64,000 nt of DNA from Desulfomicrobium orale DSM 12838 (GTDB lineage Bacteria > Desulfobacterota > Desulfovibrionia > Desulfovibrionales > Desulfomicrobiaceae): positions 930,001 through 994,000 of the forward strand of contig NZ_CP014230.1 in NCBI RefSeq assembly GCF_001553625.1. Direction: 5' to 3'. This document shows positions 294 through 3,164 of this stretch, one piece after another. Position numbers and translations under genes: made by a program. The notes below the pieces were generated by a model that saw only the letters and a program-made list of their open reading frames with translations, ran no database searches and was not told where the DNA came from. How positions within the stretch are numbered: the stretch's first letter is position 1; each line of letters opens with the position of its first letter.

Positions 294-332
294 GGGTCTT
301 TGCCGCGCCTGCGGCGGCAAAGGCCCTTTTTT
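294..332 (+). terminator. Rho-independent terminator after sodB
   Basis: A 13-base arm (294-306) pairs with 314-326, with one G-T wobble, around a short loop. Six T residues follow (327-332). It closes the sodB transcript. Confidence 0.9.
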
Positions 333-443
333 GAAAAGCTCCGGGCCTCCGTTCACGGCGGCCGGAACTCCACGGACCCGCTTCCCGGCGGGATTTCATG
401 AATTCTTCCGCGAGGGTCTTCCCCTGTTTCCAAAGAGATGACC

Positions 444-1262
444 ATGATCACACTGTACACCGCGCCGGATTGCCTGCGCTGCAAGATCGTCAAGGATTTT
501 CTGGCCGAACGCGGTCAGGAGTACACGGCTTACGACTTCAAGGCGGACAAGGATACTTTCAACGCCTTTTACCGCGCCCGCCGCGCGTCCATTTACCGCA
601 ATCCCGAAGGAGTGGAGTTCCCCATTTTCGATGACGGGGCGGTCATCCGGCAGGGCACAGGAGAAATTCTGGCCTATCTGCTGGCCGGGCAGGCCCTGGA
701 AGGATGCGCGAAACGCAGCGGCCTGCTGCACGGCTGGATTTCCGGCCTGTGCGTTTCCGCCTGCCCCGAGGGCCAGGAGGAAAATTTCATTACTCTGGTC
801 CGCCTTCTGGCCGGGGGCGGCCTGAATGTGGAACTGCGCTCGGACGGCCGCCGCGCCGGGCTGTTGCGGCAGGTGCTGGACACGGGGGCGGTCCGCCGCG
901 TGATTCTGGACATCGTTGCTCCGGCCCGTCTGTATCCGGCTGTTGCCGGGGGCGGGCTGGACATGCAGGATCTGGAACAGAGCATCACTCTGGTCAAAGG
1001 CCATGCAGAGCACATGATCCGCATGCTTGTGACCGCCTGGCCCGGCGAAGAGGGGACGCTCACGCGCCTTGCTCCCGCGGAGGCCGGCGAGGCCGCGAAA
1101 ATGGTCCTCGACGCCTGCGGTGACCGCATGCTGCCTGTATTCATCGAGGCGCAGCCGGTCGAAGGACTGGAAGCACTGGAGGATCAGGCTTTGCTGCCGT
1201 ACCGGTCCAAAATCAGGATGTCGCTGGTCAAGGCCGAAATCCGCAAGCCGGATGCACGCTAG
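444..1262 (+). CDS. Glutaredoxin domain fused to a radical-SAM-like domain lacking the cluster cysteines
   Basis: A 272-residue protein. The first ~80 residues form a glutaredoxin-like thioredoxin fold: a CLRC redox motif near residue 12, a FPIF cis-proline segment, and a GTGEILAYL helix. The rest resembles the later strands of the anaerobic ribonucleotide-reductase activase type (NrdG2/PFL-activase-like): a KRSGLLHGWISG segment, then NVELRSDG in the place of the usual DTNG, then LDIVAPARLYP in the place of MDIKAPL, and a following SITLV helix. The N-terminal strand with the CX3CX2C cysteines is absent; the glutaredoxin occupies that place. ATG 444 has AAGAGA upstream at usable distance; ATG 438 is the alternative. 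It lies 42 bases before gcvH. Function unknown; the homology to the activase is my reading by eye. Confidence 0.75.
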   Translation: MITLYTAPDCLRCKIVKDFLAERGQEYTAYDFKADKDTFNAFYRARRASIYRNPEGVEFPIFDDGAVIRQGTGEILAYLLAGQALEGCAKRSGLLHGWISGLCVSACPEGQEENFITLVRLLAGGGLNVELRSDGRRAGLLRQVLDTGAVRRVILDIVAPARLYPAVAGGGLDMQDLEQSITLVKGHAEHMIRMLVTAWPGEEGTLTRLAPAEAGEAAKMVLDACGDRMLPVFIEAQPVEGLEALEDQALLPYRSKIRMSLVKAEIRKPDAR

Positions 1263-1304: not shown

Positions 1305-1691
1305 ATGTCCGCACTGACCTACCCCGAGGATCGCCGCTACCATGCGGAGCATCTCTGGGCCATGCAGGCCGGAGACGGCACCTGGCTCATAGGCGTCACC
1401 GATTACGCCCAGAACCAGCTGGGTGATGTCATCTTCATCGATCTGCCCGAAACCGGCGCACATTTCGGCCAGGGTGAGTCCTGTGCGGAGATCGAGTCGG
1501 CCAAGGTCGTGTCCCCGGCGTGCATGCCCCTTTCCGGCACCATCGTGGAAGTGAACGGCGCTCTGGCCGATACGCCGGAACTGCTCAATTCCGACCCTTA
1601 CGGCGCGGGCTGGCTGGCGCGTATCGCCGCTGACGACGAGGCCGAGGCAACCCTGAACGGCGCCGAGTACAGGGCTCTGGTCGAAGGCTAG
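1305..1691 (+). CDS. gcvH: Glycine cleavage system H-like lipoyl carrier protein
   Basis: A 128-residue H-protein, the usual length. It carries the lipoyl arm that shuttles aminomethyl or acyl groups between glycine-cleavage subunits and is reoxidised by dihydrolipoamide dehydrogenase. The lipoylation site is visible as ESAKVVS with Lys67. The conserved IGVTDYAQ and LGDVIFIDLPE segments precede it. ATG 1305 is chosen because AGGAGG (1295-1300) sits four bases upstream; an in-frame start at 1284 lacks this. lpd follows 54 bases later, so the two likely act together. No gcvT or gcvP is in the window, so it may serve either glycine cleavage encoded elsewhere or another lipoyl-dependent process. 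Confidence 0.92.
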   Translation: MSALTYPEDRRYHAEHLWAMQAGDGTWLIGVTDYAQNQLGDVIFIDLPETGAHFGQGESCAEIESAKVVSPACMPLSGTIVEVNGALADTPELLNSDPYGAGWLARIAADDEAEATLNGAEYRALVEG

Positions 1692-1745: not shown

Positions 1746-3164
1746 ATGTCCCAGCGCATCACCGTCATCGGCGGAGGCCCCGGCGGTTACACGGCCGCTT
1801 TTGCTGCAGCCAGGGCCGGAGCGCAGGTCACTCTGGTGGAGGCTGGTTCCCTGGGCGGCACCTGCCTGAACAGGGGGTGCATCCCGACCAAGACTATCAA
1901 GGCCTCGGCCGATGCGCTGGAAACCGCCCGGCGTCTGGCCGAGTTCGGCATTTCCGGCGGCGACGGCGTCAGGCCCGACATGCCGGCCATTCTCGCGCGC
2001 AAAGACAAGGTCGTGGGTATCCTGCGGGGCGGGCTGGAAAAAACCTGCGCCCGGCTCAAGGTCAATCTTCTGCAGGGGCGCGGAGAAGTGGTTCACGCCG
2101 GACTGGTCCGGATGCACGGCCGGGACGGCACGATCCGGGAGATCGAGGGCGACAGGGTCGTCATCGCCACCGGCTCCCGGTGCCTCGACCTGCCGGATCT
2201 GCCCGTGGATCATAAGCGCATCATCAACAGCGACGACGCCTTGGAACTTGCGGCCGTGCCCGGCCGGTTGGTGGTGGCGGGCGGCGGAGTCATCGGCTGC
2301 GAGCTGGCCTTCATTTTTCAGGCTCTGGGCTCCGCGGTCACCGTTGTGGAAGGGCTGGACCGCATTCTGCCTGTTCCATCCATTGACGCGGACCTGAGCA
2401 AGCTGATTCAGCGCGAAATGAAGAAGCGCCGCATCGGCTGCGAACTGGCCCGCATGGTCCGGGGGGTGGACGCCTCCGGCCCGGCTCTGCGCGTCACACT
2501 GGGGCCGTCTCCCTTTGTCGAAGAGGCGGCCGTTCCGGCGCGCCCGGAAAGCGTGATGGAGGCCGACATGGTCTTGGTGGCCGTGGGGCGTGCGCCCAAC
2601 ACCGAGGCTTTGGGGCTGTCCCTGGCCGGAGTGGAAACGGACCGGCGCGGATGGATCAGAGTGAACCGGAGGATGGAGACTTCCGCGCCCGGCATCTACG
2701 CCATCGGCGACGTGCTGGGACCGGAGCGGATCATGCTCGCGCACGTGGCCGCCATGGAGGGAATGGTCGCAGCCCGGAACTGTCTGGGCGGTGCGGAAGA
2801 AATGGATTATTCCGCCGTGCCGGCCGCGGTCTTCACCACGCCGGAGGTGGCTACCGTGGGCCTGACCGAGGCCCAGGCCAGGGAAAAGGGCCTGAATGTG
2901 GCCTGCTCCCAGAGCCAGTTCCGCGAGTTGGGCAAGGCCCAGGCCATGGGCGAACTGGCCGGGCTGTTCAAGCTGGTGACGGACGCGGACACGGGCAGGC
3001 TGCTTGGGGCGCATCTGGCCGGGGCTCATGTTTCCGACATCATTGCCGAGCCGACCCTGGCCCTGAAGCTTAAAGCCACGGCAAAGGATCTGGCCGGGAC
3101 CATTCACGCTCATCCCACTCTGGCTGAAGGCATTTTCGAGACGGTCCATCTTTTCGAGGACTAG
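1746..3164 (+). CDS. lpdA: Dihydrolipoamide dehydrogenase (E3)
   Basis: A 472-residue flavoprotein of normal length. It reoxidises dihydrolipoyl groups with NAD+. Residues 8-14 give the FAD-binding GGGPGGY motif. The redox disulfide is GGTCLNRGC (Cys40 and Cys45). A second GGGVIGCE dinucleotide motif is in the middle, a YAIGDV FAD motif is near residue 320, and the C-terminal HAHPTLAE holds the catalytic His-Glu dyad. AAGGAG lies six bases before the ATG. Position directly after gcvH argues that its partner is that lipoyl protein rather than a 2-oxoacid dehydrogenase complex, whose E1 and E2 genes are not here. Confidence 0.95.
   Translation: MSQRITVIGGGPGGYTAAFAAARAGAQVTLVEAGSLGGTCLNRGCIPTKTIKASADALETARRLAEFGISGGDGVRPDMPAILARKDKVVGILRGGLEKTCARLKVNLLQGRGEVVHAGLVRMHGRDGTIREIEGDRVVIATGSRCLDLPDLPVDHKRIINSDDALELAAVPGRLVVAGGGVIGCELAFIFQALGSAVTVVEGLDRILPVPSIDADLSKLIQREMKKRRIGCELARMVRGVDASGPALRVTLGPSPFVEEAAVPARPESVMEADMVLVAVGRAPNTEALGLSLAGVETDRRGWIRVNRRMETSAPGIYAIGDVLGPERIMLAHVAAMEGMVAARNCLGGAEEMDYSAVPAAVFTTPEVATVGLTEAQAREKGLNVACSQSQFRELGKAQAMGELAGLFKLVTDADTGRLLGAHLAGAHVSDIIAEPTLALKLKATAKDLAGTIHAHPTLAEGIFETVHLFED

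Follow-up and report, generated by a model that had tools for sequence, protein, structure and literature searches.

The DNA analysed here, referred to as the window, is a stretch of 64,000 nucleotides from Desulfomicrobium orale DSM 12838 (contig NZ_CP014230.1, positions 930,001 to 994,000). In order, it carries a superoxide-dismutase-like gene, a probable terminator, a fusion gene followed by gcvH and lpd, and then recA and alaS (Table 1). The fusion gene, gcvH, and lpd share a strand and are separated by gaps of 42 and 54 bases. The terminator is absent from the listing of a consensus scan, and its position upstream suggests that the fusion gene is the start of its own transcription unit. 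The start of the fusion reading frame is ambiguous, as a second ATG lies in frame, and the downstream start is favored because a weak GAG-type ribosome-binding site fits it better. The encoded protein is, close to certainly, a dithiol glutaredoxin joined to a homolog of NrdG2 that lacks the iron-sulfur cluster site of radical-SAM enzymes.

Table 1. Features of the fusion locus, with positions counted in the window.
Feature	Positions	Strand	Basis or remark
Probable terminator of the superoxide-dismutase-like gene, upstream of the fusion	300..335	+	direct reading of the sequence
Glutaredoxin / cluster-less NrdG2 fusion protein	444..1262	+	272 aa; 274 aa from the alternative start at 438
Glutaredoxin domain, residues 1 to about 85	444..700	+	profile matches and ortholog alignment
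CLRC active-site motif, Cys10 and Cys13	471-482	+	
NrdG2-like domain without beta-1 and cluster loop, about residues 95-224	726..1115	+	TIGR02495, hhalign, predicted fold
SACP, GGEP equivalent	756-767	+	
Family-specific C-terminal tail, conserved LLPYRSKxR...KAEI	1116..1259	+	ortholog alignment
GcvH-type lipoyl carrier, second copy in the genome, lipoyl-lysine motif ESAK	1305..1691	+	profile and motif
Dihydrolipoyl dehydrogenase Lpd, redox motif CLNRGC	1746..3164	+	TIGR01350, 463.5 bits, above cut-off

The N-terminal half is assigned to the glutaredoxins from its sequence. Residues 1-44 match the glutaredoxin-like models TIGR02196 (1.5e-6), TIGR02194 (2.7e-5), and Pfam Glutaredoxin (1.1e-3); TIGR02194 is matched by 24 of 24 orthologs, at best with 5.6e-9, and solved NrdH and glutaredoxin structures are matched by the sequence profile at values up to 3.9e-8. 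The CxxC (or CxxS) site that follows beta-1 in glutaredoxins is present and is kept as CxRC in all 36 orthologs. Residues Cys10, Arg12, Cys13, and Pro60 are invariant in the ortholog alignment (A1), where Pro60 is the candidate cis-proline of a VEFP stretch that aligns before beta-3, as in glutaredoxin. The thioredoxin-fold part is predicted at low confidence, both within the whole protein and for residues 1-92 alone. With the glutaredoxin, NrdH-redoxin, YruB-type, and UXX-star families (TIGR02194, TIGR02196, NF041212), the protein has in common the N-terminal beta-alpha-beta unit, the CxxC, and the VEFP, and it differs from them in that its scores fall below the family cut-offs, the match is limited to the first 37-44 residues, and a second domain is fused on.

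That second domain is related to NrdG2, the activase of the anaerobic ribonucleotide reductase (RNR). Residues 118-198 match positions 82-165 of the NrdG2 profile TIGR02495 with an E of 4.3e-5, at a score for the window protein of 22.9 bits that is below the curated cut-off of 131.15, and Pfam holds no match to the C-terminal part. Profile-profile comparison with hhalign, in which residues 86-272 of 36 orthologs were set against 24 NrdG2 proteins, gives a probability of 98.9, an E of 1.5e-17, and a score of 114.2 over 119 columns. By comparison, 60 column-shuffled NrdG2 decoys peak at 22.3 and a reversed NrdG2 profile reaches 15.2, controls by which a chance similarity to NrdG2 was ruled out. 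The fusion-family profile also matches loci elsewhere over its C-terminal region only (E 1e-8 to 6e-14), and several of these are NrdG2 genes found by TIGR02495, such as those on G047:C93 and G010:C1.

The hhalign match starts at NrdG2 column 76, in the strand leading to GGEP, and covers columns 76-199 of 216. Strand beta-1 and the cluster loop are missing, and the glutaredoxin occupies their place. The CX3CX2C motif occurs in none of the 36 orthologs, window protein included. With neither beta-1 nor the CX3CX2C loop there is no site for the radical-SAM cluster. The fusion descends from a radical-SAM enzyme but fails to qualify as one. A hidden cluster motif was considered in the CX3C formed by C103 and C107 and was rejected, as C103 is unconserved and a third cysteine is absent. 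Homology to NrdG2 extends from strand beta-2 to about beta-6, with the TNG and DIKGPxxxY stretches recognizable; besides the missing strand and loop, the fusion differs from NrdG2 in its degraded GGEP and in having no adjacent NrdD, the class III reductase.

The remaining motifs are degraded to different extents across the family. At the GGEP site, where NrdG2 has SGGEP, distant orthologs have SGGDP or SGGSP and the subfamily of the window has SACP; at the TNG site, TNGSNP in NrdG2 corresponds to TDGRNP or TNGANP in distant orthologs and to SDGRRA in the window subfamily. The step from SGGDP or SGGSP to SACP shows that the decay is graded. This pattern of residues suggests that the cluster was lost first and the SAM-contacting motif later. 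The C-terminal tail is among the best-conserved parts of the protein (loci L001-L034 and the window) and has no counterpart in NrdG2; a database match to it was not found. In-frame stops listed in some orthologs were rejected as C-terminal stops or artefacts of read-through matches.

A preliminary description of the locus, made by eye, had read a glutaredoxin with CLRC at the N-terminus and the later half of an NrdG2-type activase behind it, with SDG in place of TNG, LDIVAPARLY for the DIKGPxxxY-type stretch, and the first strand and CX3CX2C absent. Its alignment agrees with the profile alignment, and the profiles show the architecture it proposed, a radical-SAM activase scaffold minus the cluster half plus a glutaredoxin; the comparison of the C-terminal region with NrdG2 profiles, which it had named as a check, is significant. 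In the structure prediction it also named, radical-SAM structures lead the search, with a model whose mean pLDDT is only 57.6. This AlphaFold2 model was built from an alignment of five rows, with residues 100-160 at 69-91 per ten-residue block, and has predicted strands at 97-103, 127-133, 150-159, 190-196, and 232-236 with helices between. The best solved matches in Foldseek are radical-SAM epimerase structures (E 8e-5), and VIA-align places 3can, a pyruvate formate-lyase activating enzyme domain, first (Z 9.6, rmsd 3.7, 147 residues), with many radical-SAM enzymes ranking after it. The predicted fold agrees with the sequence result and, because confidence in the model is low, is not independent proof of it.

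Relatives of the fusion were sought by a tblastn-type search in 199 genomes of the order and then by a profile search in two samples of 297 genomes each, one from the class and one from the phylum. Of the class genomes, 52 carry a full-length relative. Four genomes belonging to other orders or families also have one, at 31-35% identity. The fusion forms a conserved family in bacteria that respire sulfate and sulfite. In genus g12 (e.g., G011, G016, and G045), where the fusion is common, no NrdG2 match exceeds the cut-off, and another activase is presumably used.

The genes around the fusion recur. In 35 neighbourhoods from this and other genomes, counted within six genes of the fusion and with several contigs ending nearby, a gene for an arylsulfotransferase-like (ASST-like) protein is found in 26, GcvH in 25, an anion transporter (DASS, MFS, or TRAP) in 25, and Lpd in 24. 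The lipoyl lysine motif ES[AVIS]K is kept in 25 of 25 neighbouring GcvH proteins and the CxxxxC in 24 of 24 neighbouring Lpd proteins. Regulators (Crp, GntR, TetR) and a porin are also found near the fusion, as is in some cases a lipoyl synthase gene, which at L119:10721-11584 lies between the fusion and lpd, or a lipoate-ligase-like gene, which at L110 (about 2.9-4.0 kb) is close to the module. The survey sustains the thiol link with the lipoyl genes that had been suggested from their adjacency in the window, and adds ASST as a partner.

Two roles, glycine cleavage and RNR activation, were considered for the locus. The other GcvH of the host adjoins gcvP at 2.06 Mb, in the one gcvP region of the genome, and the window GcvH is not beside gcvP. 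The canonical NrdG2 of the host adjoins an NrdD-like gene at 1.394 Mb, and the fusion adjoins gcvH and lpd. These separate gcvH-gcvP and NrdG2-NrdD loci indicate that both functions are independent of the fusion locus, and both were rejected as its main role.

The near-perfect co-occurrence of the fusion with ASST is the strongest functional clue, and in this genome it comes from outside the window: ASST is found at 814 kb, where a DASS-like transporter gene immediately precedes it, about 116 kb from the fusion. Among the 297 class genomes, 50 have both the fusion and a close ASST, 2 the fusion only, 3 ASST only, and 242 neither (Fisher p 1.7e-50, a value that ignores kinship among the genomes). 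The two fusion-only genomes are assemblies about 80% complete. Within genera g1 and g12, fusion and ASST are lost jointly. In G165 (L133, G165:C1:140001-160000) the fusion gene is without its glutaredoxin portion, and the ASST gene close by is divided between two reading frames; with both genes broken, the module appears to decay together. The fusion probably belongs to a module of ASST, lipoyl carrier, and Lpd.

The ASST-like partner belongs to PF05935 by profile (83.6 bits against a cut-off of 24.2). It differs from other ASSTs of that family in having no signal peptide by eye and in the NADH and lipoyl partners encoded nearby; its N-terminus, MGHPTIYPTG, suggests a cytosolic protein. Of its histidines, one of which would be the catalytic, transiently sulfated residue, many are invariant; the E. 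coli enzyme was left unaligned in the sequence search, and among solved structures only 9kf4/9kf6 were matched. In genus g29 (e.g., G207, G253, and G254), some genomes without an ATP sulfurylase match have an abundance of ASST-like genes, with as many as 19 candidates at first look, which hints at an expansion of organosulfate enzymes.

An ATP sulfurylase match is absent in 19 of 58 fusion-bearing genomes, including the single-contig G119 and G249 and two assemblies of about 80% completeness (G077 and G284). The dsrA gene is present in 54 of the 58 and is kept in most of the 19; no dsrA match was found in G254, G276, and G277, also negative for ATP sulfurylase, where an assembly gap is possible. 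Cells without ATP sulfurylase that mostly keep dsrA would need ready-made sulfite. Such a physiology is known for Taurinivorans muris, an organism devoid of Sat whose respired sulfite is produced intracellularly (PMC10507020).

For both direction and chemistry, we infer that the module converts imported organosulfates to sulfite by way of thiols, a reading to which a probability of roughly 0.4 is given. Sulfate esters would enter the cell by the anion importer, and ASST would take the sulfuryl group off the ester and hand it to a thiol, either on dihydrolipoyl-GcvH or on the glutaredoxin. A neighbouring thiol would then attack the S-sulfonate, freeing sulfite and leaving a disulfide, and the lipoyl disulfide would be reduced by Lpd with NADH. 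The freed sulfite would pass to dissimilatory sulfite reductase, with no ATP spent. The fusion itself may mediate between the lipoyl arm and ASST, carrying either electrons or the sulfuryl group, with the NrdG2 remnant serving as a docking or ligand-binding scaffold. Counting against the proposal are the 116 kb between ASST and the fusion in this genome and the three genomes with a match neither to ATP sulfurylase nor to dsrA. The full form of this proposal, an ATP-independent organosulfate reductase that uses a dedicated lipoyl carrier or a glutaredoxin built on a burnt-out radical-SAM scaffold and bypasses ATP sulfurylase and APS reductase at the expense of NADH, is more doubtful.

Two lines of known chemistry bear on the proposal. 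In APS reductase an enzyme thiosulfonate arises, and its sulfite is set free by thioredoxin or, in plants, by a fused domain that functions as a glutaredoxin (PMC6827007). ASST forms a sulfo-histidine before passing the group to an acceptor (PMC10932419). A lipoyl dithiol, able to capture a sulfuryl group and drive out sulfite by its second thiol, could join ASST to thiosulfonate chemistry, which would explain the shared retention of lipoyl carrier, Lpd, glutaredoxin, ASST, and importers in sulfite-respiring bacteria. The known acceptors of ASST are phenols and alcohols, and the literature found has no record of ASST transferring a sulfuryl group to thiols. In plant APS reductase, too, a domain of thiol-redox function is attached to a second domain within a sulfur pathway, and sulfite release from a thiosulfonate is the proposed analogy; in the fusion module an organosulfate, by way of ASST, would be the donor instead of APS, and no relation in sequence is claimed. 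A GcvH-like lipoyl carrier and Lpd also serve sulfur metabolism rather than glycine cleavage in lipoate-dependent sulfur oxidation, where the carrier LbpA works with sHdr. Unlike that system, the direction of the fusion module would be reductive, and no sHdr genes were recognized among the recurrent neighbours of the fusion.

A less probable reading, though the closest competitor, limits the fusion to redox exchange with the lipoyl carrier and Lpd, with electrons running from NADH through Lpd, lipoyl-GcvH, and glutaredoxin to target disulfides; the link to ASST would then stem from a common substrate or habitat and not from sulfuryl transfer to a thiol. The fusion does adjoin GcvH and Lpd in several genomes with no ASST near, the window among them (L109, L121, L122, L139, and L140). 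However, genomes with no ASST near the fusion still carry it elsewhere, and GcvH or Lpd is missing beside the fusion where ASST is adjacent (L114, L118, L127, L128, L134, and L141). Retention of ASST genome-wide together with these gaps makes ASST the tighter genome-wide partner of the fusion. A role for ASST in sulfating phenols, or in shuttling sulfuryl groups between them during uptake or detoxification of aromatics, with the thiol proteins protecting or regulating it, would fit the phenols and alcohols sulfated by characterized ASSTs (PMC11576661, PMC10932419) and the nearby MFS importers and protein of the MetA-pathway-of-phenol-degradation family. Such a role is improbable, as it leaves unexplained both the dedicated lipoyl carrier and Lpd and the retention of the module where ATP sulfurylase is absent.

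The two other explanations concern the NrdG2-like domain, and both are less probable still. That it still contributes to radical reactions, for instance by binding SAM or a partner activase in an accessory role (compare split activases), is very unlikely: the SGGDP or SGGSP and TDG or TNG of distant orthologs do stand at SAM-contacting positions, but these residues are degraded in Desulfovibrionales (SACP, SDG), the cluster cysteines occur in no ortholog, and no glycyl-radical enzyme was recognized among the recurrent clusters of annotated neighbours. That the radical-SAM similarity is a chance resemblance is hardly credible. The single-sequence match, so far under the NrdG2 cut-off, would allow it, whereas the profile-profile score of 114 against at most 22 in the shuffles, and the lead of radical-SAM structures in the fold search, speak against it.

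Both halves of the protein belong to known families. In the open-licence literature on such a fusion, on ASST with lipoyl genes, and on organosulfate respiration by way of ASST, neither the fusion with its lost cluster half nor the surrounding module was found described, and novelty at the level of the pathway is possible. It is unusual for a radical-SAM domain to remain under selection once its cluster half is gone, and in this protein the missing half is exactly what the glutaredoxin replaces. If the conversion of organosulfates to sulfite is true, sulfidogenic bacteria, including lineages unable to activate sulfate, would obtain respirable sulfite from sulfate esters without ATP. Organosulfates would then be tied directly to the production of H2S, and lipoyl-GcvH would have a function other than glycine cleavage.
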